A stretch of DNA of 16,674 nucleotides from Firmicutes bacterium UBA6132 (GTDB lineage Bacteria > Bacillota_A > Clostridia > Tissierellales > Sedimentibacteraceae): contig DIVM01000372.1 of assembly GCA_002435835.1 (NCBI GenBank), positions 1 to 16,674 on the forward strand, written 5' to 3'. Under the pieces are notes generated by a model that saw only the letters and a list, made by a program, of their open reading frames with translations, had not been told where the DNA came from and did not search any database. Made by a program: the position numbers and the translations under genes. The first letter of the stretch is position 1; each line of letters begins with the position of its first letter. This document shows, one piece after another, positions 1 through 16,674 of this stretch.

Positions 1-1958
1 ATCGTAATATAAAAACAAATACAATTTACTATTCAAATAGATGTAAACAAATGCTTGGATATAATATTGATGAAATAAGCGATGACGCTGATGAATGGAT
101 GAAAAGAATTCATAAAGATGACGTTAAAATTGTTAGGGATAAAATAAACAGACATTATAAAGGCGAGGAATATGATGCGGAATATCGATTAAAATGTAAA
201 GACGGTAATTATAAATGGGTAAGAGTAAGAGGAAAAGTCATAAAGTGGGATGATGAAGGTAATCCTTTGAGGATGACAGGAACTATTTCAGATATCAATG
301 AAGAGGTACTCATCAGAAAGAAAAATGAAGAAAATGAAAATAGGTTAATGTGGCTTTATGATTCACTAAGTGTTGGAATTGTACATGGGGAGATGATACT
401 TGATAGCTTTGGTGATCCAATAGATTATAAATATCTACACATGAATAATTATATGAAAGAAGTTATTGGTATAACACCTGAGGAATTTTATAAAGATAAT
501 ATTTTAAAGCTGCTACCCCTAACAGGTAAAAATTGGTTTAATATTTTTGGACAATCTATATTAAATGGTAAATCTTTTATTTTCGAGCATTACAATGAAA
601 ATAAGGATAAATATTTTAAAATTAATATTTATTCTCCAAATTCAATGCAATTTGTACTTTTAATTACAGATATTTCTGAAAATAAGAAAAAGGAAATTGA
701 GTTAAGTCAAAAATATGAAGAACTGCAGATTGTGTATGCAGAACTACAGACAGTAAATGATGAACTAACAATTACTGAAGAAGTGCTAAGAGATAATTAC
801 AGGGAATTAGAAAAAGCAAATGAAAATGTAGAAACAGCTAATAAAGCAAAATCGCAGTTTCTTGCAAATATGAGCCACGAACTTAGAACTCCTTTAAATG
901 GGATATTAGGATGCACACAACTGCTTAAGTTCAGTAATCTAAGCTATGAGCAAAATGAAGATGTATTGATGATAGAAGAATCTTCAAATCATCTATTGGA
1001 ACTAATAAATGAAATTCTAAATTTGTCAAAGATTGAGTCTGGAAATATTGAATTAAAAGGTAAAAGGTTTAATTTTATGGAACAAATGGAATTTGTAATA
1101 AAAGAGTTAACTTTTCTTGCAAAGGATAAAGACATAGAAATATTGTACTATATAGACCCATTTACAAATAAAGAACTAATAGGGGATAATTTTAGGCTGA
1201 AGCAGATAATAAATAACTTAATAAGTAACGCTGTTAAATTTACTGAACATGGCCATGTGTTTTTTAAGGTAAAACAAATAAGCAAAACTATAGATGAAAC
1301 AAAGTTACAATTTATAGTTGAAGATACAGGAAAAGGAATTAAAGAAATTTTTAAAAATGATATTTTTAATAAATTTACTCAAGAGGAATCAAATTATACA
1401 AAAAAATATGGAGGGACGGGCTTAGGACTTGCCATATCAAAAGAGCTTGCAAAAATGATGGGTGGAGATATAGGTTTTGAAAGCGAAGTCGGTAAAGGAT
1501 CTAAGTTTTATTTTACTGCAGATTTTAGAAATGTAACTGACTATGTTATAGATAATAAAAAGAATTTCCATTATAATAAAGAAAATGCAGAAGATAAAAC
1601 AATACTAGTTGTTGAAGATAATGATATAAACCTAAAAATAGCTGTTGCTTTTTTAAAACAATTAAATTATAAATACGTTTTTGCTCATAATGGCCAAGAG
1701 GCAATTTACTATTTAGAAGAAAACAAAGCAGACATTATTTTGATGGATGTTCAAATGCCTATTTTAGACGGATGCGAGGCAACAAAATTAATAAGAGAAA
1801 AAGAACTTAAAACTGGCGAACATAAAATAATCATTGCAATGACAGCCTATGCAATGGATGGTGATAGAAAAAAATTCATTGATTGTGGAATGGATGATTA
1901 TATTTCTAAGCCTTTTAATATTGAAACTTTAGGCGAAATGATTGAAAAATTTATTTAG
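1..1958 (+). CDS. Hybrid sensor histidine kinase, PAS-PAS-HisKA-HATPase-REC (5' partial)
   Basis: The reading frame is open to the left edge (codons start at base 3), and residues before the first Met (base 51) continue a PAS fold, so the true start lies outside the window. In order: a PAS_3-like domain containing WMKRIHKDD, a second divergent PAS (about 340-690), a short coiled coil, a HisKA dimerisation domain with phospho-acceptor His in NMSHELRTPLNG (His codon 876-878), an HATPase domain with N box NLISNAVKFT and G boxes VEDTGKGI and GGTGLGLAI, and a C-terminal receiver with acidic pair VVEDND, phospho-Asp in LMDVQMP (codon 1746-1748) and the KPF lysine. No membrane segment is seen in the visible part. 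The protein probably autophosphorylates and passes the phosphate to its own receiver. The signal and the downstream partner cannot be inferred, because no HPt or response-regulator gene adjoins it. The end of the gene looks complete. Confidence 0.93.
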   Translation, partial: RNIKTNTIYYSNRCKQMLGYNIDEISDDADEWMKRIHKDDVKIVRDKINRHYKGEEYDAEYRLKCKDGNYKWVRVRGKVIKWDDEGNPLRMTGTISDINEEVLIRKKNEENENRLMWLYDSLSVGIVHGEMILDSFGDPIDYKYLHMNNYMKEVIGITPEEFYKDNILKLLPLTGKNWFNIFGQSILNGKSFIFEHYNENKDKYFKINIYSPNSMQFVLLITDISENKKKEIELSQKYEELQIVYAELQTVNDELTITEEVLRDNYRELEKANENVETANKAKSQFLANMSHELRTPLNGILGCTQLLKFSNLSYEQNEDVLMIEESSNHLLELINEILNLSKIESGNIELKGKRFNFMEQMEFVIKELTFLAKDKDIEILYYIDPFTNKELIGDNFRLKQIINNLISNAVKFTEHGHVFFKVKQISKTIDETKLQFIVEDTGKGIKEIFKNDIFNKFTQEESNYTKKYGGTGLGLAISKELAKMMGGDIGFESEVGKGSKFYFTADFRNVTDYVIDNKKNFHYNKENAEDKTILVVEDNDINLKIAVAFLKQLNYKYVFAHNGQEAIYYLEENKADIILMDVQMPILDGCEATKLIREKELKTGEHKIIIAMTAYAMDGDRKKFIDCGMDDYISKPFNIETLGEMIEKFI

Positions 1959-2928
1959 TGTTGTCATAGATATATAAGATCTTCAGACATTTTAATTTAA
2001 ATGGTGTAAACTTATAAATAAGAGTACCGCTCTTTGTAAATATTATACAAGCCATTCCTTCAATGAAATTGCCTTGGAGTTTTCCTAACTTTGCTAATTT
2101 AAGAGCTTTGTCGCATTCATCTAAACCATTGCATTCAACAGGTTTTAAATCAACTATTAAATTTTGCTCAATTACAGAATTTTTAATTGCTTCTGTAATA
2201 CCGCCAGAGCGCGCCAAAATTCTTCCAAAATAAGATGCATTATCAAGTGGAGATGCTTCACATTTTGATGGCTCAATATCATAAGCATCAAGATATGCTA
2301 TTAGTTCTTCAAAACTTATTGCATATTGAATGTCATCTTTTAAGTTGTCCTCAGTAATTTCTGCTTTTTTTGCAACGCATGGTACTATGAATATTACTTT
2401 TACACTAGGGTCGGTCTCTCTTATAAGTCTTGCTGTTGCAATCATAGGGGATACTGATGTTGATATGTTGTCTGTAAGTTCAGGATATTTTATTTTTATA
2501 TATGAAACAAATGCAGGACAGCAGGATGATGTTACAAATTTTTTGTGTTCAAGTTCTTTTTCAAGAAGCTTCGCTTCATAATCAGCAACAATATCAGCAC
2601 CAAGGGCAGCTTCAACAACTTCATAAAATCCAAGCTTTTTTATTGCACATACAATGTTTTCAATTTCAGCATCAGGGAACTGAGCAGAAATTGCAGGAGC
2701 TGCAACGGCATATACTTTATATTTTGTATTTTTTTCTGATTGTTCAATTAAATCCATTATTTCTAAAACATGAGATTTATCAGTAACTGCTCCAAAAGGG
2801 CACCTTGTAACACATGCACCGCAATTAATGCATTGGTCATAATCTATAATAGATTTTTTAGTTTCTGGATCATAATTTAATGCTCCTACTTTGCATGATG
2901 TTTTGCAAGGCCTTTTAACATAATGAAT
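1951..2928 (-). pseudogene. [FeFe] hydrogenase (group-B-like), remnant lacking both ends
   Basis: The frame is open from 2928 and holds a ferredoxin-type cluster region (PCKTSCKVGAL, then CINCGACVTRCPFGA) followed by the hydrogenase catalytic domain. The first H-cluster motif, TSSCCPAFVSY, and the second, PCVAKKAE, are present. The third motif starts (EGMAC, Cys codon 2046-2048) but the usual following GGC-x-GG is absent: from about 2045 the frame runs into unrelated sequence and stops at 1951. In this family the missing Cys bridges the diiron site to the 4Fe-4S cluster, so the product should not hold a working H-cluster. The N-terminal part, normally about 100 or more residues with further cysteine motifs, is also missing. 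There is no proper start: a TAG lies directly before 2928, and the first in-frame Met (2757) falls after the cluster motif. The remnant is fused to the truncated SpoIIE gene upstream. A frameshift alone cannot explain these losses. Confidence 0.85.
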
Positions 2929-3798
2929 CTAAATCTACTTCAAGGTTTAACCCTAATGCTCTTTGAGCTATAAGAGCAGTTGTGCCGCCACAAATTATTT
3001 TTCGGTTGCTTCCTTCTGTCATTTTTTTTACTAAAAAGCTTCAAAAGATTCATGAGATGGAGGTCCTATAAAAACATCAGTATACTCAGGCTTTCTTACC
3101 TTAATTGTAAGAATTGTAGTATCATCACCTGGTTTGTCATTATAAAGGTTGTTGCAAACTGCAATAAAATTTCCATTCATTGTTTGAGATGCATTGTTAA
3201 CATCATTGAGGTTTTTTAAATATTTGTTAATTTCATCCCAGCTCCATCCAAGATTGAGCATTTGACCTATTCCTGCATGTATTGCTCCGTCACTTACAAC
3301 GCATATAGTATCGCCCAGTTCAAGATGAATATCTGATTCATAAATTTTCTTTGAGCCTATGATTCTTTCTTTTTTATCAATAGGAAAACTTCTGTTGTGA
3401 GAATAATAAAAGTAAGGAGGACTGTCATATTCAGCAATATATGCGTCATAAACATTATTGTTTTTGTTTATTTGTATTATTGTAAATGTTGAATAAGCAA
3501 GCTTTCTTACTTTGCACTCTGGCAAAGTATTTATTATTGTTTTAATTGTGTCATAAATAGATGCACCGTTTTTTAACATTGTTGCTGCTATTTTTGTTGT
3601 CATTGTAGCAAGGATATTAGCTTTAACTCCGCTTCCTAACCCATCTGACAAAACTATTATGCAATTATCGTCATTGTTAATAAATTCAACTTTATCGCCG
3701 CAAAGTTCCTCGCTATATTTATTTATGCTTTTATAACTGATGTCTAAAAATTTTTCTATATCATAATTATTTTCATTGAAATCAATATTGTAACTCAT
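2915..3798 (-). pseudogene. SpoIIE-family protein phosphatase of a hydrogenase operon, frameshifted and truncated
   Basis: The PP2C-like SpoIIE domain is well preserved: LSDGLGSGVKAN carries metal-binding Asp and Gly residues, VVSDGAIHAGIG follows, and PGDDTTILTIKV sits near the end. The ATG at 3798 begins one base after the stop of the upstream PAS fragment; a Met seven codons earlier is possible but less natural. The frame stops at 3031 after SHESFEAF. Restoring one T in the T run read on this strand (3033-3037) continues it as LVKKMTEGSNRKIICGGTTALIAQRALG, with the family's typical KIICGGTTA segment. That continuation stops at 2915, shortly after LNLEVDLDSLC, where a family member would run roughly another hundred residues. 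Such phosphatases are usually encoded beside PAS-containing [FeFe]-hydrogenase-like sensors, as here. Frameshift plus truncation make it a probable pseudogene, although the catalytic domain alone (256 residues) could still fold. Confidence 0.8.
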
Positions 3799-3799
3799 T

Positions 3800-4156
3800 T
3801 TATTTACCGCTTTCTTCAAGAACTACACCTTTAAACTTTAATAAGGCAGCTTTGGTTTCAGCAGTAGTTTCACCTAATAATCCTGCGATTTCTTGAGCAA
3901 CGCGCATTTGTTTTTCTATAACTTTGTCAGCAGTTTCCAATGTGTTTAATTTCAAATTTAAAAGTTGATTTTTTTTGTTTTCTTCATTTGTTATATCGTT
4001 TAAAATTCCAAAAATTATTTTGTTTTTAGGAAGATAAACAACGCTTTGAAGAACAGTTAACCCATAGTTGTTAAGCACTGCTTTTTTACCTAAAATATTT
4101 TCACCATTATTTAATACTTCTTCATAGTCATCGGAAGGTAAAAGTGTTGAAATGTT
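3800..4156 (-). pseudogene. C-terminal remnant of PAS-containing sensory [FeFe]-hydrogenase-like protein
   Basis: The frame is open from 4156 (a TAA precedes it) to a stop at 3800. It contains the end of a PAS domain (LTVLQSVVYLP, IIFGILNDITNEE) followed by a helix with KVIEKQMRVAQEIAGLLGET, which is the characteristic C-terminus of large PAS-containing hydrogenase-like sensor proteins of Clostridia. The whole iron-sulfur and hydrogenase part, several hundred residues, is absent. Only a weak GTG start (4078) exists inside the PAS remnant. The next gene, the SpoIIE phosphatase, starts one base after the stop, the usual operon arrangement. The deletion end lies near 4157, next to the leader of the YbjQ-family gene on the other strand. 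Almost certainly not functional. Confidence 0.82.
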
Positions 4157-4220
4157 TTAGCGGGGGTTTGTATATACGTTCTTGTTGAACGAATTAAAGA
4201 AATAAGGAGTGGTGAAGAAG

Positions 4221-4532
4221 ATGATCTTAGTAAATACTGATTACATTACAGGAAAAGAGTTTGAAATGCTTGGTCTTGTTAAAGGAAGCACTATCCAGTC
4301 AAAAAACATCGGTCGTGATATTACACAAGGTTTTAAGACTCTTGTAGGAGGAGAACTAACAGCATATACGGAAATGATGAATGATGCAAGAGCTCTTGCG
4401 ACAAAACGTATGGTAGCTGAAGCGGAAGAGTTGCATGCTGATGCTGTTATAAATATCAGGTATGCTTCTGCAGCAGTTATGCAAGGTGCTGCTGAAGTAA
4501 TGGCTTATGGAACTGCGGTTAAATTTAAGTAA
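4221..4532 (+). CDS. YbjQ/UPF0145 family protein
   Basis: A 103-residue protein with the family signature throughout: VNTDYITGKEFEMLGLVKGS, then SKNIGRDITQGFKTLVGGEL, YTEMMNDARALATKRM, and a C-terminal AVINIRYASAAVMQGAAEVM segment. The family forms small beta-rich homopentamers. Its role is unproven, and it is often listed as a putative heavy-metal-binding domain, although no Cys or His cluster is visible here. The ATG at 4221 was chosen because homologues begin at MIxVxTDY; the in-frame GTG at 4209 overlaps the AAGGAG (4204-4209) and is unlikely. The gene is monocistronic, ending before a strong terminator. Its leader abuts the deletion end of the hydrogenase remnant, so its original upstream context may have been lost. 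Confidence 0.92.
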   Translation: MILVNTDYITGKEFEMLGLVKGSTIQSKNIGRDITQGFKTLVGGELTAYTEMMNDARALATKRMVAEAEELHADAVINIRYASAAVMQGAAEVMAYGTAVKFK

Positions 4533-4587: not shown

Positions 4588-4766
4588 ATATTTTGTATTG
4601 TTTGAAGTGAATTTGGTGTTTAAAAAGTGTTTGCGGATAATTTTTAAATTAAAAAATATTTTTTTATTAAAACAACGTTACACAACAAAAACAACAGGTC
4701 GAGTATATACTTAAAGAAATTGAGCATAGCATTATGCTGTGACTTATATATTAGGAGGAATAATTT
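4588..4766. other. AT-rich leader upstream of nhaC with a small perfect hairpin
   Basis: This 179-base gap should hold the promoter of the nhaC gene cluster. I find no convincing -35/-10 pair; a TATACT-like hexamer near 4693 lacks a well-spaced -35. A perfect inverted repeat, AGCATA-GCAT-TATGCT, lies at 4723-4738, about 15 bases before the AGGAGG (4753-4758), where it could form a leader hairpin or an operator. No riboswitch was recognised. Confidence 0.45.
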
Positions 4767-6194
4767 ATGGAAAGTACTACAAAAAAACCATCATTTACTA
4801 TTTCACTATTGATAGTAGCATTTTTATTCGTAATTATTATTGCTCAGGTGCTAGTAGCAGGTAGCCCTGATATCCACATGACACTGGTATTTTCAATTGC
4901 TTTTGCTGTGTTGCTTCTTATGATGACAGGTACAGAGTGGTCAAAAATAGAAGATGGCATTATGCATGGATGTAAAATTGCAACAGTTCCAATGTTAATA
5001 CTTATGTTTATAGGTATGTTAATACCTGCTCTTATTGCAGCAGGAACAATCCCAATGCTTATATATTATGGATTACAAATTATTAACCCTTCAGTATTTC
5101 TATTAACTACGGCTCTTGTATGCAGTGTTTCATCAATGTGTACAGGTAGCAGCTGGACTACAGGAGGAACTTTTGGTGTAGCTTTCATGGGCATAAGCAT
5201 AGGTCTTGGAATACCACCAGCATTAACAGCAGGTGCAGTTGTTTCAGGAGCTGTCATAGGAGATAAGCTATCTCCACTTTCAGATTCTACAAACTTAGCA
5301 GCTGGTGTTTGTGAAACAAATCTTTTTGCACACATAAAAAGTATGTTTTACACAACTGTACCTGCATTTATAGTTTCATTAGTACTTTATACTGTTTTAG
5401 GAATGAAATACAGTGCATCTACAATCGATACAACTTCAGTAGATGCAATACTTGGTGGAATTTCAAACAATTTTAATATTACACCTTTATATTCAATTAT
5501 TAGCTTAATTCCTCTTTTAGCTGTTATATTTATGGCTGTTAAGAAAGTAAGCGCTCTTGCTGCTATGGTAGTTGCATCAATTATAGCAATGATAATTGCT
5601 ATGTTTACTCAAGGACATACAATACTTGAAATGATGGCATTTATGAATTACGGTTTTAGTATTGATACAGGAGTTGAAGCTGTTGATAAACTTCTTAACA
5701 GAGGTGGTATTCAGTCTATGATGTGGACGGTTTCTTTAGGATACTTAGGACTTTCATATGGCGGTATTCTTGAAAAAACAGGAACATTGGAATCTTTGTT
5801 AGACAAAATGGCTGGATTGACAAAAAGTGCAGGAAACTTAATTATTACACATGTTATATCATCAATTGCTATTAACTTTATTTCAGCAAGTCAGTACGTT
5901 GCAATAATTATACCTGGAAGAATGTACTTACCAGCTTATAAAAAACTTGGTATTAGAAGTGATGTAGCATCAAGAACATGTGAAGATTCAGGTACAGTAA
6001 CTTCACCATTGGTACCTTGGGGATTATGCGGAGTGTTTTTCACTGGAGCATTAGGCGTTAGCACATTAGAATATCTTCCATTTGCATTCCTATGCTACTT
6101 AACTCCGATTGTTGCAATTGTTTATGCAGTTACAGGAAAATTTATTTGGAAAGAAAATGATTCAAAAAATTCTGTAGAAAACGCTGTAAAATAG
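4767..6194 (+). CDS. nhaC: Na+/H+ antiporter, NhaC family
   Basis: A 475-residue integral membrane protein with about eleven to twelve hydrophobic segments along its length, the usual size for the family. The conserved NhaC core GDKLSPLSDSTNLA is at residues 165-178, and GTVTSPLVPWG lies near the C-terminus. Members exchange Na+ for H+, and some exchange a carboxylate pair such as malate/lactate, so the label antiporter is safer than a fixed substrate. It starts at an ATG eight bases after AGGAGG. The M20 peptidase gene follows after 39 bases, suggesting co-transcription; similar NhaC genes beside peptidase or amidohydrolase genes may import a substrate or sustain the ion gradient for it. That link is an inference from position. 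Confidence 0.9.
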   Translation: MESTTKKPSFTISLLIVAFLFVIIIAQVLVAGSPDIHMTLVFSIAFAVLLLMMTGTEWSKIEDGIMHGCKIATVPMLILMFIGMLIPALIAAGTIPMLIYYGLQIINPSVFLLTTALVCSVSSMCTGSSWTTGGTFGVAFMGISIGLGIPPALTAGAVVSGAVIGDKLSPLSDSTNLAAGVCETNLFAHIKSMFYTTVPAFIVSLVLYTVLGMKYSASTIDTTSVDAILGGISNNFNITPLYSIISLIPLLAVIFMAVKKVSALAAMVVASIIAMIIAMFTQGHTILEMMAFMNYGFSIDTGVEAVDKLLNRGGIQSMMWTVSLGYLGLSYGGILEKTGTLESLLDKMAGLTKSAGNLIITHVISSIAINFISASQYVAIIIPGRMYLPAYKKLGIRSDVASRTCEDSGTVTSPLVPWGLCGVFFTGALGVSTLEYLPFAFLCYLTPIVAIVYAVTGKFIWKENDSKNSVENAVK

Positions 6195-6233
6195 GAGATA
6201 TCTCTTAAGTTTATAAAGGAAATGGTATAAATA

Positions 6234-7427
6234 ATGTACAAAATTGAGAAGGAACAAACAACTAAATTATTGATGGATTTGGTTTCTATTGAAAGTCCAT
6301 ATTTTGAAGAAGATAACATTATAGAATATGTATATAAATGGTTACAAAAAAACAAAATAAAATCATTTGTCCATGAGTATCATGAGTCAAAAGTTACAGG
6401 TTTTAAAGGCAAGAATATCGTAGTGAATTTAGAAGGTGAAAAAGGCGGACCTGTAATATGTTTAAATGGACATTTAGATACAGTTAAATTATGCAATGGG
6501 TGGACAGCTAATCATAGGGGAGAAATAAGAGGTGATAAACTTTATGGAGTTGGAGCACTGGATATGAAGTCTGGATGTGCATCAACAATGATTGCATTAA
6601 AGGCCTTTTATGAAAATCATAAACACTTTAAAGGAAAAATAATTTCCACTTATGTATCTGTAGAAGAAGGACCTTATGGAATGGGAACTAACGCTTTAAT
6701 TGAAGAAGGATACATAAAGGATGTTGACTTTTCAATTATTACAGAGCCAAGTGCAGCATTTACGGGCAATGAATTCCCTAATGTTTGTTTAGGAGCACGA
6801 GGAGGATATGGCTTAGAAATTGAATTTTTCGGTAAATCATCACATGCAGCAACCCCTGAACTTGGTATGAATGCAGCAGTAGATGCTGCAAAAGTAGTAT
6901 GCGAGCTGGAAAATGTAGAGTATGTAGAAGATTCTCATCTTGGCAAGGGAGCAGCTTGCGTAGTAGCTCTTGAAAGCGATGGAGGTGCATGCAGTGTTCC
7001 TGATTATGCAAAAATACGTCTTTTCTGGCATATCGTTGTAGGTGAAAGTGAAAAAACAATAACGAAAGAAATTGAAAAAGCTATAAAAAGAGCAAATATA
7101 AAATGTAAGTATAAAATTAATTTTAGAGAAGCACCATCTGAAGGTTCTAAGGGATTTATGCCTTATACTATAACTGGTAAAGAACCTTTGGCAAAGGACT
7201 TTATTGAAACAATAGAAAATGTATGTTGTAAAAAGCCAAGTATTTCTTATTTCCAAAGCATTGGAGATTTTAATTATTTAGGTTCAAGATTAGGTGCACC
7301 AGCTATTATTTTTGGCGCTGCAGGCAGTAATTTTCATGGAAGCGATGAATATGTAGAAATAGAATCAGTTGTGAAAACTGCAGAAGTAATATATGCATTT
7401 CTCGAAAAAGTATTAGTTAATAATTAA
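6234..7427 (+). CDS. M20 family metallopeptidase (ArgE/DapE-like)
   Basis: A 397-residue cytoplasmic di-zinc hydrolase with a full set of M20 residues. GHLDTV gives metal ligand His80 and Asp82; GALDMKSG gives bridging Asp110; VEEGPYGMG gives catalytic Glu144 and ligand Glu145; ITEPS gives Glu171; SSHAATPE gives His204 in the dimerisation lid; and NFHGSDEY gives ligand His368. Family members remove acyl groups from amino acids or cleave small peptides and carbamoyl compounds, so the substrate is open. The gene sits 39 bases after nhaC, with a modest AAAGGA 13 bases before the ATG, and is followed by a hairpin terminator. No signal peptide is visible. Nothing appears truncated. Confidence 0.9.
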   Translation: MYKIEKEQTTKLLMDLVSIESPYFEEDNIIEYVYKWLQKNKIKSFVHEYHESKVTGFKGKNIVVNLEGEKGGPVICLNGHLDTVKLCNGWTANHRGEIRGDKLYGVGALDMKSGCASTMIALKAFYENHKHFKGKIISTYVSVEEGPYGMGTNALIEEGYIKDVDFSIITEPSAAFTGNEFPNVCLGARGGYGLEIEFFGKSSHAATPELGMNAAVDAAKVVCELENVEYVEDSHLGKGAACVVALESDGGACSVPDYAKIRLFWHIVVGESEKTITKEIEKAIKRANIKCKYKINFREAPSEGSKGFMPYTITGKEPLAKDFIETIENVCCKKPSISYFQSIGDFNYLGSRLGAPAIIFGAAGSNFHGSDEYVEIESVVKTAEVIYAFLEKVLVNN

Positions 7428-7441
7428 TTAAAATTAGATAT

Positions 7442-7479
7442 AAGGGAAGCATAGTTTCTGAATTATGCCTTCCCTTTTT
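7442..7479 (+). terminator. Rho-independent terminator after the M20 peptidase gene
   Basis: Arms AAGGGAAGCATA and TATGCCTTCCCTT pair with one bulged base and are followed by a five-T run. Only about 40 bases separate it from the next start codon, leaving little room for a full promoter, so it may act as a partial terminator that lowers downstream expression. Confidence 0.82.
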
Positions 7480-7519
7480 CAATAATTACATATTTAAATA
7501 AGAGTATGGAGGAAATAAA

Positions 7520-9166
7520 ATGAAGTTTGATATATTACTTGTTAATGGTAAAATATATACGATGGAAGAAGAAGGCAAAATACAAGAAGCCATTGGAATA
7601 AAAGATGGAATTATAAAATTTGTTGGGACAAATGAAAAAGCTGCATGTTTTGAAAGTGATGAAATAGTAGATTTAGAAGGAAAAACTGTGGTGCCTGGGA
7701 TGGCTGATTCCCATATGCATATGTATGCTTATTGCCAAAATCAAACTTCTGTAAATTTAGAATCAGCTCGCAGTATAAATCAAATGATTGAACTTATGAA
7801 GGAAAAGGTAAAAGAAACACCTCAAGGAAACTGGATAAAGGGTGTTAACTTTGATCAAAGCAAGTTTAAGGAAAACTGTTTGCCAACAAAACATGATTTA
7901 GATAAAATCAGCATATTTCATCCAATTGTCATTAGAAGGTGCTGTCTTCATACAATTGTTGCAAATACAATGGCATTAAAACTAGCAGGTGTTGGGAAAG
8001 GATACAATGGTGGAACTGGCGGAATTGTAGAATTTGATGATGACGGAGAACCAAACGGCATATTAAGGGAGCAATGCACGAAAGTATTTGATGAAATTAT
8101 TCCTGATCCATTATCAGATGACAATGAAAAACGCCGTATTATGCTAAAAGCATTTGAAGATTTAGCATCAAAAGGAGTTACTTCTATTCACACATATGCT
8201 GCAAAAATATGGAAGTATAATGAAGATATTGAATTATATAAAGCTTTTCAAAAGGAAGGAATGCTACCTCTAAGAGTTACGGTATGCTTAGATGAACTTT
8301 TTAAACCAGAAATACTTTCCAGTGCAAAGAAAAGTGATCCTTACAGAATGGTTCAATATGGCTCGTATAAGCTGTTCACTGACGGTTCTTTAGGCTCGAG
8401 ATCTGCAGCCCTTAAAGAACCTTATGCTGATGATGATTGTAATAAAGGATTTGTTATATGCAGCCAAGAAGAATTAAATGAAAGAGTTTTGACAGGCTAT
8501 GAACATGGTCTTCAACTTGCAATACATGCTATTGGGGATGCTGCACTTTCAATGACTCTCAATTCCATTGAAAACACATTGATTGTTACTCACAATAAAG
8601 GTATGACAAAGGAAGAACAAAAGTCACGTCTTCCATTTAGAATTATACATGCACAAATGATTGATAATGAATTAATTGAAAGAATGAAAAAGCTCCCTAT
8701 AGTTTTAGATATACAGCCTATATTTTTGTGTACTGATTTACATTGGATTGAAGATGTAATTGGTAAGGAAAGGATTAAAGGAGCATATGCTTGGAAAAAA
8801 ATGCAGGATGAAGGTTTGATTTTAACAGGAGGTTCAGATTGCCCTGTGGAAAGTTTTGATCCTTTAAAAGGAATATATGCTGCTGTAACAAGATGTGATA
8901 TAAAAGGGTTTCCAAAAGGCGGGTTTAATCCGGAAGAAAAGTTGTCAGTATATGAGGCGTTTTCTTTATTTACTAAAAATGTCCATGTTGCAACAGGTCA
9001 AGAAGATAAATTAGGCACATTAGAAATAGGAAAGTTTGCAGATCTGGTTGTACTTGATAAAAATCCATTTGAGATAATAGAACAAGAACTTTTAAATGTT
9101 AAGATTTTACAGACATTTGTTGCAGGAAAAAGTGTTTATATGTTACAATCATTATTAAATAAATAA
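7520..9166 (+). CDS. YtcJ-type metal-dependent amidohydrolase (Amidohydro_3)
   Basis: A 548-residue protein of the amidohydrolase superfamily, of usual length for YtcJ or N-substituted formamide deformylase-like enzymes. The metal-binding layout looks complete: HMH at His65 and His67 in PGMADSHMHM, a probable bridging Lys284 in SYKLFTDGSLGSR, His336 in IHAIGD, His377 in IIHAQM, and Asp440 in GGSDCPVES. These enzymes hydrolyse amide-type bonds in the cytoplasm, and the actual substrate cannot be read from sequence. A GGAGG (7508-7512) precedes the ATG. The second paralogue follows after 61 bases, so the two are probably co-transcribed, perhaps with read-through from the M20 gene. Confidence 0.92.
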   Translation: MKFDILLVNGKIYTMEEEGKIQEAIGIKDGIIKFVGTNEKAACFESDEIVDLEGKTVVPGMADSHMHMYAYCQNQTSVNLESARSINQMIELMKEKVKETPQGNWIKGVNFDQSKFKENCLPTKHDLDKISIFHPIVIRRCCLHTIVANTMALKLAGVGKGYNGGTGGIVEFDDDGEPNGILREQCTKVFDEIIPDPLSDDNEKRRIMLKAFEDLASKGVTSIHTYAAKIWKYNEDIELYKAFQKEGMLPLRVTVCLDELFKPEILSSAKKSDPYRMVQYGSYKLFTDGSLGSRSAALKEPYADDDCNKGFVICSQEELNERVLTGYEHGLQLAIHAIGDAALSMTLNSIENTLIVTHNKGMTKEEQKSRLPFRIIHAQMIDNELIERMKKLPIVLDIQPIFLCTDLHWIEDVIGKERIKGAYAWKKMQDEGLILTGGSDCPVESFDPLKGIYAAVTRCDIKGFPKGGFNPEEKLSVYEAFSLFTKNVHVATGQEDKLGTLEIGKFADLVVLDKNPFEIIEQELLNVKILQTFVAGKSVYMLQSLLNK

Positions 9167-9227
9167 TTGAAATTAAATTGATAATATGTATTGCTTTTAT
9201 ATAAATTGCTTTTATGGAGGAATTATA

Positions 9228-10763
9228 ATGTATGCAGATATTCTAATTAAAAATGGCAGATGCATGACTATGGAAGAAAGAGAAATAAAGGAATGGCTTG
9301 CCATTGAGAAAACAAGAATAATTGCAATGGGAAATGGCAATGAATATGAATCTCTTATTGGAAATGATACCGTTGTATTTGATGCACAAGGAAGAACTGT
9401 TCTACCAGGATTCATCGACAGCCATTTTCATGTTGTACAAACTGCACTTAATTCTGTTAGCCTTGATTTGAGTGGCGTGAAAACTCATGAAGAGTTAGGA
9501 GAAATAATTAGGGAAACTTCTAAAACTTTTTTGGGTGGCTATATACGTGGAATAAAACTTGAAGAAGGGCAGTTCAAGGAAAAGAAATTTCCAAACAGAA
9601 CATTTTTGGATAAATACTGCAATGATGTACCTGTTTTGCTAAATTCTTATGAATATCAAGTTAGTATACTTAATACTTACGCCATGCTATATTTTAAAAT
9701 TCCATTTACTGCTGAAGGAATAGAAATGGATGAAAAACAAATGCCTACAGGTATTTTTAGAAAACAGGCAAATGCAATTTTACGTACAAATATATTAAAA
9801 AATATAAAAGAAGATGTAAGAAGAGATGCTATATCAGGTATTATGGCTACTCTTTTAATGAATGGCATCACAACTGTAAACGCTATGGAAGGCGGATTTA
9901 TGTACAGTGACAAAGATGCAGAGTTTATATTTGAGCATGGGAAAGAATTTCCTATAGATATGGTTTTATTTTACCAGACTATGGATATTGAAAAAATTAA
10001 ATCAATGGGATTAAATAGAGTTGGTGGTTGTCTTTATATCGACGGTACTTTTGGAGCGAGAACAGCTGCGCTTTCCTTTGAATATGCAGATTGTCCTGGA
10101 ACTATGGGGAGCCTTCGCTTGACACAGCAGGAAATAAATGATTTCGTATTGAAATGCTATAAAAATGATCTTCAGCTTGCTTTATATACAATTGGCGACA
10201 GAGCTATTGAAACTGCTTTAAATGCACATGAAAACGCATTATATCAAACAGGTATAACTGGGCTTAGACACAGATTAGAGCATGTAGAATTAGCTAATGA
10301 AAAACAAATAAAAAGGGCTAAAGATTTAGGAATTGTATTTTCCATGCAGCCAACCTATGAAACTTATTGGGGAGGATGTGGAAAAATGTATGAGCAAAGA
10401 TTGGGAAATAAATACAAGTTAACAAATCCATTTAAAGAAATCATTGATGATGGTGTAGTTATTTGTGGTGGTTCAGATAGTGATATTACTGAACCAAGGC
10501 CTCTCTTGGGAATTCATGCTGCTGTGAACCATCCAATAAAGGAACATAGAGTAGATATTTATGAAGCATTGAAAATGTTTACTTGCAATGGTGCGTATGG
10601 TATATTTGAAGAAAATGAAAAGGGTACTTTAAGAGTTGGAAAACTTGCTGATATTGTAATTTTAGATAAGGATTTACTTTCAGTGCCATCAAATGAAATA
10701 GAAAAAATAAAGGTTTGTGTAACAATTAAGTCAGGAGAAATACTGTTTAATAATCTTGGATAG
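9228..10763 (+). CDS. Amidohydrolase paralogue (YtcJ-like) with altered metal-site residues
   Basis: A 511-residue protein of the same family as the preceding gene, with shared landmarks: HFH (His66, His68) in PGFIDSHFHV, DGTFGARTAAL, RLEHVEL (His352) and GGSDSDITEP (Asp417). Two positions differ from the paralogue. The lysine of the YKLFTDGS strand is replaced by Cys268 (GGCLYIDGT), and the histidine of HAIGD is replaced by Tyr320 (LYTIGD). The enzyme may therefore bind a single metal or use other chemistry. The start was placed at the ATG at 9228, nine bases after GGAGG (9215-9219); a longer frame from 9186 lacks a ribosome site and is not family-like. The BTAD regulator gene follows almost immediately. 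Substrate unknown. Confidence 0.9.
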   Translation: MYADILIKNGRCMTMEEREIKEWLAIEKTRIIAMGNGNEYESLIGNDTVVFDAQGRTVLPGFIDSHFHVVQTALNSVSLDLSGVKTHEELGEIIRETSKTFLGGYIRGIKLEEGQFKEKKFPNRTFLDKYCNDVPVLLNSYEYQVSILNTYAMLYFKIPFTAEGIEMDEKQMPTGIFRKQANAILRTNILKNIKEDVRRDAISGIMATLLMNGITTVNAMEGGFMYSDKDAEFIFEHGKEFPIDMVLFYQTMDIEKIKSMGLNRVGGCLYIDGTFGARTAALSFEYADCPGTMGSLRLTQQEINDFVLKCYKNDLQLALYTIGDRAIETALNAHENALYQTGITGLRHRLEHVELANEKQIKRAKDLGIVFSMQPTYETYWGGCGKMYEQRLGNKYKLTNPFKEIIDDGVVICGGSDSDITEPRPLLGIHAAVNHPIKEHRVDIYEALKMFTCNGAYGIFEENEKGTLRVGKLADIVILDKDLLSVPSNEIEKIKVCVTIKSGEILFNNLG

Positions 10764-10776
10764 GAATAGGTACAAT

Positions 10777-11979
10777 ATGCTAAATATTTGTTTTTTAGGA
10801 AAATCAAGATTTGAATATGATGGAATAGGATTTGGTGAACAGTTAGGAAATAAGGCTGTTGCTTTAATTTGCCTGCTCGCACTAAATGAGAAAAGATATT
10901 TAAGCAGAGAAAAAATTATCGGGTATTTATGGCCAGACAGCAATGCAGAAGCAGCAAAATATAATTTAAGATACAATTTGTGGCTTATAAAGAAAAACAT
11001 AGAGCAAGATAAAAATGGACATCAATTTCTTCGTGTTGACAATGATTGTTGCTGTATAAATCAGGATTATGAATTTGAATGTGATATTTTTGATATTATA
11101 AAATTTAAGCCAAGCAATAATGATTCAATTGAAGGAATGTTGAAACTAAAGCAGTTGTTTAGAGGAGATTTGTTAGAAGGATGTTATTTTAATAAATGCG
11201 ATGAACTTAATGAATTTATTATTTTTGAAAGGATAAATTTTGAACAACGTAAAGTTAAAATTTTGAAGCGATTAGTTGAGCTTTATGAAAATGAAAATAA
11301 TTATGATTCTTGTATTGAAATAATAAATGAAATTCTTGAAATAGAGCCTTATGATGAAGAAATGGTTTTAAAAATATTGGACATATACATAAAATGCGGA
11401 AAGCAAGTTGCTGCTATTACATATTATAATAATTTCAGTAATGTATTAGCAGGAAGTTTAGGGATATCACCATCTTATGAACTTAGAAACAAATATAAAG
11501 AAATAAGATTGACATTGTCAGATTGTAATAATGATGATGATTTATCATATGAAGGTAAGCCTTCTATATTGTCTGATAAAAAGAATATCCATTCAGATAT
11601 AAAAATTTTTTCAGACTGTATGAAAAATATAGATTATTTTTGGATTTCAAATGTAATAGGAAAAATAACAACAGTTGTTGAAAAGGCTTATTTAAAGCAA
11701 TTAAGTAAAAAAGAACTATTAGATTTGAGCGTTATACAAAGTGATATATTAAGTTGTTTAAATTTAGATGAAGAATTAGATTTAATTGCAACTTGTAAAC
11801 GAGAAGTAATGGGAGTTAGCATTATTAATGCATTTATAAAATTATTAACGCATGTTAGTCATAATCAAAGTGTAACAATAGTTATTTTAAACAGTGCAGA
11901 TATGGATGAAGTTTCTTCTAATGTGCTAAAATATCTTAAAAGAAACAAAATAGAAGGTTTAAATTTAATTGAAGAATAA
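10777..11979 (+). CDS. BTAD/SARP-type transcriptional regulator with shortened ATPase-like C-terminus
   Basis: A 400-residue protein. The first 90 residues look like a winged-helix DNA-binding domain (ALICLLALNEKRYLSREKII, GYLWPDSN, NLRYNLWLI), followed by a bacterial transcriptional activator domain of paired helices (about 100-240, with ELYENENNYDSCIEIINEIL and AITYYNNFSNVLAGSLGI). The last 150 residues are unusual. TIVILNSADMDEVSSNVLKYL resembles a Walker B strand plus helix of the AAA-type ATPase domain found in MalT-like regulators, but no Walker A GxxxxGKT is present, the usual DD is replaced by NS, and the protein stops soon after. The ATG at 10777 has AGGAATAGG before it and begins 14 bases after the amidohydrolase stop; an in-frame TTG at 10756 would overlap that gene. 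It probably regulates the preceding cluster. Confidence 0.82.
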   Translation: MLNICFLGKSRFEYDGIGFGEQLGNKAVALICLLALNEKRYLSREKIIGYLWPDSNAEAAKYNLRYNLWLIKKNIEQDKNGHQFLRVDNDCCCINQDYEFECDIFDIIKFKPSNNDSIEGMLKLKQLFRGDLLEGCYFNKCDELNEFIIFERINFEQRKVKILKRLVELYENENNYDSCIEIINEILEIEPYDEEMVLKILDIYIKCGKQVAAITYYNNFSNVLAGSLGISPSYELRNKYKEIRLTLSDCNNDDDLSYEGKPSILSDKKNIHSDIKIFSDCMKNIDYFWISNVIGKITTVVEKAYLKQLSKKELLDLSVIQSDILSCLNLDEELDLIATCKREVMGVSIINAFIKLLTHVSHNQSVTIVILNSADMDEVSSNVLKYLKRNKIEGLNLIEE

Positions 11980-14535: not shown

Positions 14536-16467
14536 TTAATCATTTTTGATATCATACTTTTTAATTTTTCTATATAACGTGGACCTTCCAATATTTAAAA
14601 CTTCAGAAACTTTAACCATATTGCCGCCATATTTTTTTAATGCATTTTCAATGGCTTCTTTTTCTACGGTTTCCATAGGTACTACGCTCATATCTTCTTT
14701 TTTGTTTTCAACCCTGCTGTTATTGCTGTATTCTTTCTCCACATAATATTCTAAATCTAAATTCATATCGCCCAAATAATAATCTCTTTCAACTACATTT
14801 CTAAGTTCTCTTACGTTACCGTTCCAATTATATTCTTTAAGGTTGCTAATATACTGTCTGCTGACTTTTTTATCTTGCCCAGTTTTAGCATTCAATATTT
14901 TCACAAAATATTTTGTGAGTATTTCTATATCTTCTTTTCTTTCATTTAGAGGTATTGTTTTTATATTCATAACACTCAGCCTATAATATAGGTCTTGTCT
15001 GAAATTTTTCCTTTTTACTTCTTCCTTTAAATTTCTATTAGTAGCACCAATAACTCTCACATCAAGCTGCTTTTCGTAGTTGCCTCCAACCCTGGTTATT
15101 TTACAGTTATCTAAAACTCTTAAAAGTTTTGTTTGAATATCTAATGGCAATTCTCCGATTTCATCCAAAAAAATAGTTCCTCCATCAGCAATTTCAAATT
15201 TTCCAGGATGTCCTTCCTTTGATGCTCCTGTGAAAGCTCCTTTTTCATATCCAAAAAGCTCGCTTTCCACAAGATCTCTTGGTATTGAAGCACAATTTAT
15301 TGCTACGAAAGGTCCTGATGATCTGTCGCTATAGTTGTGTATTGACTGGGAAATAAGTTCCTTGCCTGTTCCGCTCTCCCCCTCAATTAGTATGTTGCAG
15401 TCGCTTTTGGATGCTTTTTTTGCAAATTCAATCATATGCTTCATATTTTGATTTTCAGTTATAATATCATCGAAGTTATAAGATGCTTTATAACCAACTA
15501 CTTTGCTTACTAATTTGTGTACATATTGTGTTTCTCTAAAAGTTATTACAACTCCAACAAATTTTTCATTAACCCTCATAGGAACTGCATTAATAATACA
15601 CTTAACTCTATTATTTTTTATATAAAAGTCACATTCTACATTATTATAAGCATTATATTCCTGATTTAATATTTTATCAAAGCTAACATTTTTTAAGGTA
15701 TCTGTGATATTTATATTAAGAATATCTTTAAGATTTATATTTAATATTTCAAGGGCTCCATCATTTACCCTTTTAATTTTTAATTTCTCATCTAAAACAA
15801 TTATTCCCTCACAAGTAGAATTGAAGGTAACATTCATTAAATTATTTGAAACAGTTAGGGCTAATTGCTTTTGTATAGAATATGCTGCTGAAGTTACCAT
15901 CCCTAAAGTATGTGGATGGGCATTATAATAATTACCAGACATATTAATACATCCGACTATGTTGCCTTCTTCATCATGAACAGGCGAAGCTGAACAAGTC
16001 CAGGAATGCTGGTTTATGCAGTAATGCTCTGCCCCTATTGTTTGTATTACCTTATCCAAATAAAGGGCAGTGCCAATTGCATTAGTTCCGACTGCTTGTT
16101 CAGTCCACAATGCACCCTTTATGAAATTCAGCTCATCCATTTTTTTCAGCATATCATCATCACCAATAACTTCAATTATATATCCATGTTTATCAGTCAA
16201 TATTATAGCAAATTCAGAACCCTTCACAATATTATATACATTTTCCATTATAGGTCTGGCAACAGAAATTAGCTCAGCATTTTCTTGTAGTTTAACATTG
16301 ATAGGGACACTAAACTTAGTGTTTCCTTTTCCATTCAATGGATCTACATTATAGCTTTTGCATCTTTTCCATGAATCTGCTATTTCATGTCTCACTACAT
16401 CATCTAAATAACCGGTTTCTATAAATTTCTTCCATGATTTTTCTATTAATTTTATATATGATTGCAT
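14536..16467 (-). CDS. AcoR-like sigma-54-dependent transcriptional activator
   Basis: A 643-residue enhancer-binding protein counted from the ATG at 16467. The order is an N-terminal helical segment (SWKKFIETG, IADSWKRC), a GAF-type sensor domain with GTNAIGTAL and HSWTCSASPVHDEEGNIVG, a PAS domain (CEGIIVLDEKLKI), an AAA+ domain with Walker A GESGTGKE (363-370), sigma-54 loop GAFTGA (410-415), Walker B TIFLDE (431-436) and NWNGNVRELRNV, and a C-terminal Fis-type helix-turn-helix (KVSEVLNIGRSTLYRKIKKY). The layout matches AcoR, which responds to acetoin. The dehydrogenase it faces, with a sigma-54 promoter and repeated upstream sites, is the obvious target. The ATG at 16467 has GGGG seven bases upstream; an earlier in-frame ATG at 16500 lacks a ribosome site at normal spacing. 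The ligand remains an inference. Confidence 0.92.
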   Translation of the reverse strand: MQSYIKLIEKSWKKFIETGYLDDVVRHEIADSWKRCKSYNVDPLNGKGNTKFSVPINVKLQENAELISVARPIMENVYNIVKGSEFAIILTDKHGYIIEVIGDDDMLKKMDELNFIKGALWTEQAVGTNAIGTALYLDKVIQTIGAEHYCINQHSWTCSASPVHDEEGNIVGCINMSGNYYNAHPHTLGMVTSAAYSIQKQLALTVSNNLMNVTFNSTCEGIIVLDEKLKIKRVNDGALEILNINLKDILNINITDTLKNVSFDKILNQEYNAYNNVECDFYIKNNRVKCIINAVPMRVNEKFVGVVITFRETQYVHKLVSKVVGYKASYNFDDIITENQNMKHMIEFAKKASKSDCNILIEGESGTGKELISQSIHNYSDRSSGPFVAINCASIPRDLVESELFGYEKGAFTGASKEGHPGKFEIADGGTIFLDEIGELPLDIQTKLLRVLDNCKITRVGGNYEKQLDVRVIGATNRNLKEEVKRKNFRQDLYYRLSVMNIKTIPLNERKEDIEILTKYFVKILNAKTGQDKKVSRQYISNLKEYNWNGNVRELRNVVERDYYLGDMNLDLEYYVEKEYSNNSRVENKKEDMSVVPMETVEKEAIENALKKYGGNMVKVSEVLNIGRSTLYRKIKKYDIKND

Positions 16468-16500
16468 ATGTTTACCCCATAATTTTCTTGCATTGACCAT

Positions 16501-16674
16501 CCCATGATTTTAGGAGTATATAAAAATTTCTCCATGTTTTTGAATTATATCATAAATATATATTATAAATTTTAAATTTTTCAAATTTTTTAAAATCAAT
16601 CGTGAAGGTCATACATCTGGTGTTTAAATTGAATTATTGTCAAACACAACCTTTAAACTGCTTTGTTTTTCTGC
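16501..16674. other. AT-rich region upstream of the activator gene
   Basis: No gene is seen. On the minus strand a TTGACA (16638-16643) and a TATAAT (16544-16549) exist but are much too far apart to pair, and neither has a good partner, so no promoter is called. Confidence 0.4.

Follow-up and report, generated by a model that had tools for sequence, protein, structure and literature searches.

The hfsABCD locus of Thermoanaerobacterium brings together a hydrogenase-like sensor (hfsB), a serine-phosphatase homologue (hfsC) and a ferredoxin-linked [FeFe]-hydrogenase (hfsD), according to the excerpt of PMC11837493 that we used, and excerpts of this source and of PMC5707799 compare hfsB-hfsC-hfsD with hydS/hydA2 of Ruminococcus albus. 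The idea that a sensor and a phosphatase of this kind read H2 levels is found in sections of PMC6776011, and group B [FeFe]-hydrogenases are reported as active in the excerpted text of PMC12578642. Here, we describe three broken genes on contig DIVM01000372.1 of Firmicutes bacterium UBA6132, found in a stretch of 16,674 nt that was analysed over its whole length (hereafter, the window), which correspond to a sensor, a SpoIIE-type phosphatase and a hydrogenase. They lie outside the locus that the sensor and phosphatase genes occupy in related genomes, and with somewhat better than even confidence we read the region as a dead and misplaced fragment of a Sedimentibacter sensor-phosphatase-hydrogenase operon.

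The likeness to hfsBCD and HydS/HydA2 lies in the sensor-phosphatase-hydrogenase order, which is present intact in two relatives, the genomes designated G1110 and G1129. The difference from hfsABCD is that the third gene of the G1110 and G1129 operons encodes a group B hydrogenase and that all three genes of the window are broken (no search for hfsA was made). With the group C sensory [FeFe]-hydrogenases, as described in the sections of PMC6776011 mentioned above, the locus shares an H-cluster protein adjoining a putative Ser/Thr phosphatase; in G1110, the intact sensor carries an Fe_hyd_lg_C domain (residues 73-298) together with an FeS cluster domain. It differs in that the window keeps only the last 118 residues of the sensor, with neither the Fe-S nor the H-cluster part, and in that Pfam finds no PAS domain at E ≤ 1e-3 in the intact G1110 sensor or in the window piece. 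The original prediction, made from the sequence alone, had called the sensor PAS-containing, a label that comes from the literature on HydS/HfsB and that the Pfam result does not support. The hydrogenase piece, in turn, resembles the group B family (TIGR04105), being 70-80% identical to the database homologues P0002-P0026, some of them named Sedimentibacter (the top intact one at 80%); unlike an intact member, it is truncated at both ends and scores under the cut-off of the model.

Three broken genes in operon order

The pieces of the sensor, the phosphatase and the hydrogenase follow one another on the minus strand from 4156 to 2047, as established from open reading frames (ORFs) and alignment to intact relatives. 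Their similarity to intact proteins is far beyond chance, with E-values of 3e-153 for the hydrogenase, 1e-138 for SpoIIE and 4e-56 for the sensor in a four-sequence search. The original prediction of three in-order minus-strand remnants within 1951..4156 was borne out when each piece was aligned to its intact homologues, and so was the proposed order, which is that of the intact clostridial-type operon of G1110 and G1129. Judged by its sequence, the cluster is the remnant of a real operon of this type. Four disabling lesions set it apart from intact homologues: a truncation at each end, an internal deletion and a frameshift.

The sensor piece (3803..4156, minus strand; identified by tblastn) is the C-terminal remnant of a HydS/HfsB-type hydrogenase-like sensor and comprises 118 of 571 residues. 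Aligned with three intact sensors, positions 4156-3803 cover residues 454 to 571 (in G1134, to 569) and are 68-86% identical, with 86% to G1130 and 75% to G1110, and a stop codon stands in frame directly upstream of the piece.

The phosphatase ORF (3031..3819, minus strand) is 75-81% identical to intact homologues and retains a complete PP2C domain (PF07228, positions 2-192 of 192, 56.6 bits), so that the SpoIIE/PP2C assignment was recovered by the domain search. Homology runs in one frame from 3801 to 3034 and in a second from 3037 to 2921, the frameshift falling at a T run near 3031-3037; the continuation up to the internal joint (2921..3037, minus strand) is 74% identical to G1130 over 39 aa. 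The piece reaches residue 277 of 388 of the G1134 protein. The last ~111 residues are thus gone, and the C-terminal extension of the Sedimentibacter homologues (388-393 aa) is not kept, in agreement with the frameshifted SpoIIE gene missing its end that had been predicted. In the protein database, the closest intact homologue is 85% identical, and several matches are named Sedimentibacter. Other short SpoIIE forms were seen: the match in G1119 (C151:15135-16193) stops at residue 356 of 391 within the contig, and the database protein P0224 (243 aa, on a 10.4-kb contig) ends close to the frame break of the window.

The hydrogenase piece (2047..2919, minus strand) corresponds to residues 145-435 of 484, which agrees with the predicted middle of a group-B-like hydrogenase. 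The NCBIfam model TIGR04105 matches it at 358 bits over model positions 164-448 of 462, below the cut-off of 450, while an intact relative scores 553.5 bits. The first 144 and the last 49 residues are gone, and with them the N-terminal cysteine-rich part. Homology ends after GMAC, and the GGC that follows in seven of seven intact homologues aligned is missing. The GPC motif reads VPC, and Val at 2385-2383 replaces a glycine that is invariant in the 24 hydrogenase homologues compared. The set of TSCCP, GPC and GMACxGGC, motifs that we take to have their usual roles at the H-cluster, is therefore incomplete. Past the end of homology, a tail continues in frame (1951..2046, minus strand), with no convincing similarity to intact C-termini. 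One scan of the piece against genome contigs gave no match above 60% identity over most of the query and a single 36-residue match at 67%.

The original prediction had also placed breaks near 2045, 2915-2931 and 4157, and DNA alignments of the relatives stop at 2045-2048, 2915-2924 and 4132-4157, which confirms the three positions and refines the middle one to ~2921. Hydrogenase DNA matches from five genomes begin at 2045-2048 and end at 2921, and SpoIIE-sensor matches from four genomes begin at 2915-2924 and end at 4132-4157. Compared with the intact operons, the joint of SpoIIE and hydrogenase (2918..2926) lacks 756 nt present in G1110 and 765 nt present in G1129; because the two genes are adjacent in the same order and on the same strand in both genomes, internal deletion is a better cause of this joint than random fusion.

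The remnant sits between a hybrid kinase gene and ybjQ. At the sensor end, the joint (4150..4240, plus strand, from alignment) leads into the 3' end of a gene of ~74 aa; in three relatives, G1134, G1112 and G1110 (L136, L141, L142), this gene stands before ybjQ and overlaps it. Since only its last 28 residues are retained in the window, the joint at 4157 cut both neighbours. By eye, the sequences of relatives overlap by ~3 nt or less at 4157 and by few bases at the joints, and a comparison of ~350 nt on either side of each joint found that the longest direct word shared across any of them has 10 bases, at distant positions. Few-base overlaps and the lack of long shared words are typical of end joining.

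Two other origins of the joints were considered and set aside. A mobile-element scar was ruled out, as no repeat of at least 8 bases is common to the two end regions, and so was a simple insertion interrupting the small gene ahead of ybjQ, as the front part of this gene is unrecognisable in 1959-2059. One copy of an 18-nt imperfect repeat (78%) ends at 2921; further copies occupy 1904-1921 and 3562-3579, and we assume the repeat to be chance in AT-rich DNA.

The intact operon and its locus in the genus

An RpoB tree of sampled genomes, followed by an order-level search, led to five genomes with hydrogenases 72-86% identical to P0002, and the genus of one of them, G1110, comprises 25 genomes, evidently Sedimentibacter to judge from the names of the protein homologues. 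Searches of an order, class or phylum that started from other seeds had found nothing close. The intact trio of G1110 and G1129 consists of a sensor (571 and 573 aa), SpoIIE (388 aa) and the hydrogenase (484 aa), with overlapping or touching ends. At E ≤ 1e-40, 21 of the 25 genomes have one SpoIIE match each; the other four have none, an absence not proven at their unstated completeness. The sensor stands beside SpoIIE in all 21. The match extends at least to residue 389 of 391 in 19 of them, the exceptions being G1119 and, at the end of a contig, G1122. No relative was seen with the combination of joints present in the window, either among the genus genomes or among the best 120 database matches per search.

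The surroundings of the pair are also conserved. Within ~6 kb of SpoIIE, BKACE is found in 20 of the 21 genomes, rho in 17 and glpX in 15, and BKACE and/or rho in every one. BKACE is missing only in G1122, at a contig end. For rho, contig ends account for G1130 and G1124, and the gene was unseen in the 2.4-2.7 kb beyond the sensor in G1121 and G1125. The weakest anchor is glpX, since five genomes (G1114, G1121, G1124, G1125 and G1128) truly lack it between BKACE and SpoIIE. In the window, which extends 12.5 kb on the sensor side, rho and glpX have no match, and none of the ORFs of at least 90 aa matches BKACE. The remnant lies outside the conserved sensor-SpoIIE locus. In the comparison with close relatives that the original prediction had proposed as a check, the position of the remnant thus differs from the BKACE and/or rho neighbourhood of all 21 genomes.

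The distribution of the hydrogenase is far narrower. The 484-aa form (at least 72% identity to P0002) occurs in five of the 25 genomes; a further protein, with a partial-length match to it at 39-42%, occurs in 14, and G1129 has both. Hydrogen metabolism thus need not depend on the 484-aa gene. In three of the five genomes the hydrogenase is unlinked from sensor-SpoIIE: in G1134 it stands beside a block of genes headed by nhaC, and in G1133 and G1127 it stands elsewhere. In G1134, the intact gene and the adjoining nhaC block have the relative orientation that is seen in the window. These solo group B genes lie at 9251-10705 of L133, 9883-11337 of L134 and 7716-9170 of L135, and a promoter-like sequence was noted by eye upstream of the one in G1134. 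The sensor-phosphatase pair, for its part, occurs without the 484-aa hydrogenase in 16 genomes. A pair present in 21 of 25 genomes, set against a hydrogenase present in five and unlinked in three of these, probably does more than regulate the 484-aa hydrogenase.

Origin and age of the remnant

These observations raise the question of how long ago the genes were broken. The hydrogenase piece departs at four of 108 otherwise invariant columns, a number also reached by three of the 24 other sequences, and the SpoIIE piece at two of 92, where none of the 118 others exceeds one. Database homologues were taken as the best 120 matches per search: the hydrogenase count used 24 of these (P0002-P0026 minus P0005, a piece on a 1.2-kb contig; rows from P0027 onwards, P0027 itself being a piece on a 1.9-kb contig, were left out), and the SpoIIE count and tree used 118, leaving out P0224, which is short, and P0121, which is the window itself. 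Calculations of the ratio of nonsynonymous to synonymous divergence (dN/dS) and of relative rates drew on five genomes in the case of the hydrogenase and on four in the case of SpoIIE and of the sensor, rather than on all 21. Between the window and its relatives, dN/dS was 0.10-0.12 for the hydrogenase, 0.05-0.07 for SpoIIE and 0.11-0.18 for the sensor; between intact genes it was 0.05-0.21 where computable, with dS mostly saturated. Compared with G1110, and with G1129 as the outgroup, the window had accumulated more changes (26 to 12 in SpoIIE and 17 to 6 in the sensor); in the other comparisons it had fewer.

The conserved residues that are kept and the dN/dS values, which resemble those of intact genes, suggest recent breakage. 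The pieces seem to have evolved much like working genes until recently, as would be expected after a recent break or copying event and equally in a chimera. The original prediction had argued from clean reading frames that this lineage recently lost the module; intact-like evolution until recently is supported, and loss from the lineage is unsupported, since the remnant lies off the conserved locus.

Under the reading of a dead, out-of-place fragment, an ancestral piece that began in the last fifth of the sensor, spanned the phosphatase and reached into the hydrogenase would have landed between the ybjQ gene pair and the hybrid kinase gene. Both ends would have been cut at relocation or later, and the cut at 4157 would also have taken away the front of the small gene that precedes ybjQ; a further internal deletion, of 0.76 kb, would have fused SpoIIE to the hydrogenase, and a frameshift would have broken SpoIIE. 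As the remnant is outside the conserved locus, both ends may have been cut in a single relocation or copying event, so the claim of at least three separate losses is not supported: one internal deletion and one frameshift would be left as losses inside the fragment. In the intact set, H2 or redox state would be sensed by the hydrogenase-like sensor and passed through the phosphatase to tune the ferredoxin-linked hydrogenase, and the set in the window can probably perform neither the sensing, nor the relay, nor the tuning. The pieces, their joints and the differing surroundings in relatives are observed; the direction of events, the copy status of the remnant and the correctness of the assembly are what we infer here.

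Several points weigh against this reading. The persistence of an intact core operon elsewhere in the genome is a deduction, and on the hydrogenase side the flank extends for only ~2 kb. The orientation of nhaC and the hydrogenase shared with G1134 may be chance, or the site may be an old second home of the gene that predates a chance insertion. The hydrogenase tree (P0002-P0035 and five genomes, that is, the piece and 39 others) leaves undecided whether the remnant is affiliated with operon-borne or solo genes: in the approximately unbiased (AU) test, all five trees had p values of 0.19-0.66 and none was rejected, and a tree-based origin of the piece was dropped for this reason. Finally, the fragment ends bear no insertion-sequence-like signature, in that the two end regions share no repeat of at least 8 bases.

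The alternative that fares best, and that comes near to the original proposal, is decay of a sole copy in place, in which the operon or its region was moved by rearrangement and then suffered three deletions and a frameshift. Preserved order and strand are in its favour, as is the variability of the nhaC, EamA, ybjQ and hydrogenase neighbourhoods among G1110, G1112 and G1134, and the single SpoIIE match in each bearing genome indicates that second copies are not usual. However, the sensor-SpoIIE neighbourhood, unlike the other loci examined, is conserved in all the bearing genomes, and the four genomes lacking a SpoIIE match also count against it, with the reservation on completeness given above. 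We consider such a history unlikely, though worth serious attention.

A chimeric contig, in which the assembler or the library joined at least two co-occurring Sedimentibacter genomes, appears somewhat less probable still. The nearest genome changes from block to block, with AcoR 98.3% identical to G1130, ybjQ 91% to G1134 and EamA 87% to G1112; the hydrogenase and SpoIIE ORFs of the window are represented in the protein database by a single 17,123-bp contig only; and G1130 matches AcoR at 98% in DNA yet SpoIIE at 81% in protein, a contrast that may also be taken as a hint of mixed genomes. On the other hand, with overlaps of a few bases and no shared word above 10 bases, a k-mer graph would have little reason to make the joins, although the true parents are not known. 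Moreover, two genomes have the pieces that meet at 2921 as adjacent operon genes in this order and on this strand, which is improbable under random joining, and the remaining block borders fall between genes.

That the short forms are functional, the SpoIIE ORF being a trimmed phosphatase and the other pieces passengers, is very improbable: the complete PF07228 domain, the dN/dS of 0.05-0.07 between SpoIIE and its relatives and the short SpoIIE forms of P0224 and G1119 can be cited for it, but nearly all relatives retain the full-length match, the upstream part of the operon is gone, the SpoIIE piece departs at more invariant columns than any of the 118 homologues, and the hydrogenase has lost 144 residues at its start as well as the motif that follows GMAC.

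If the region is indeed an out-of-place fragment, the remnants say little about loss of hydrogen metabolism in this bacterium, and the pseudogene cluster reflects ordinary decay. It also calls for caution, because pieces in operon order mimic loss in place until neighbourhoods are compared. A more doubtful extension is that the window records a failed step of a recurring Sedimentibacter process in which the group B hydrogenase is copied or moved from the operon near rho and glpX to new sites. Relocation, as possibly seen in the solo genes of G1134, G1133 and G1127, would free the hydrogenase from the H2 sensor; here, sensor and phosphatase pieces would have come along, and all of them decayed.

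Genes flanking the remnant

On the hydrogenase side, a hybrid histidine kinase gene open at the window edge (3..1958, plus strand) was recognised by domain search. It has nine homologues at 70% identity or more, which do not settle the origin of the left flank, and no DNA match to positions 1-2044 was found among the matches listed for the 25 genus genomes. On the sensor side, the truncated ~74-aa gene (window 4154-4240) appears hydrophobic by eye and has no Pfam match. It is followed by an intact ybjQ gene (PF01906; 4209..4532, plus strand), in a region of 91% DNA identity to G1134 that starts at 4157.

Beyond ybjQ, nhaC, an M20 peptidase gene, two amidohydrolase genes and a BTAD regulator gene (4746..11979, plus strand) are collinear with G1134 at 78% DNA identity (4753-11976). 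Upstream of nhaC (window 4616-4640), words resembling GTTTAAAAAGTGTTT occur, as they also do in G1134 and G1112, with looser variants in G1110, and they are possibly a candidate regulator site. The window had no Rfam match at the gathering score.

The far end of the window carries an AcoR-like regulator gene (14554-16674) with 98.3% DNA identity to a 4.2-kb contig of G1130 (L140, C220). The SpoIIE of G1130, only 81% identical in protein to that of the window, adjoins BKACE and glpX and is without the hydrogenase. A shared strain, transfer or wrong binning are candidate explanations of this contrast. If the contig truly belongs to G1130, the species of the window probably has an intact core pair, and the copy in the window is a diverged second one; if it was misbinned, nothing follows. 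ADH and AcoR, which adjoin each other in the window, are found at two contig ends of G1110 (C2:485878-486829 and the end of C5; L145, L146) and are thus probably neighbours there too.

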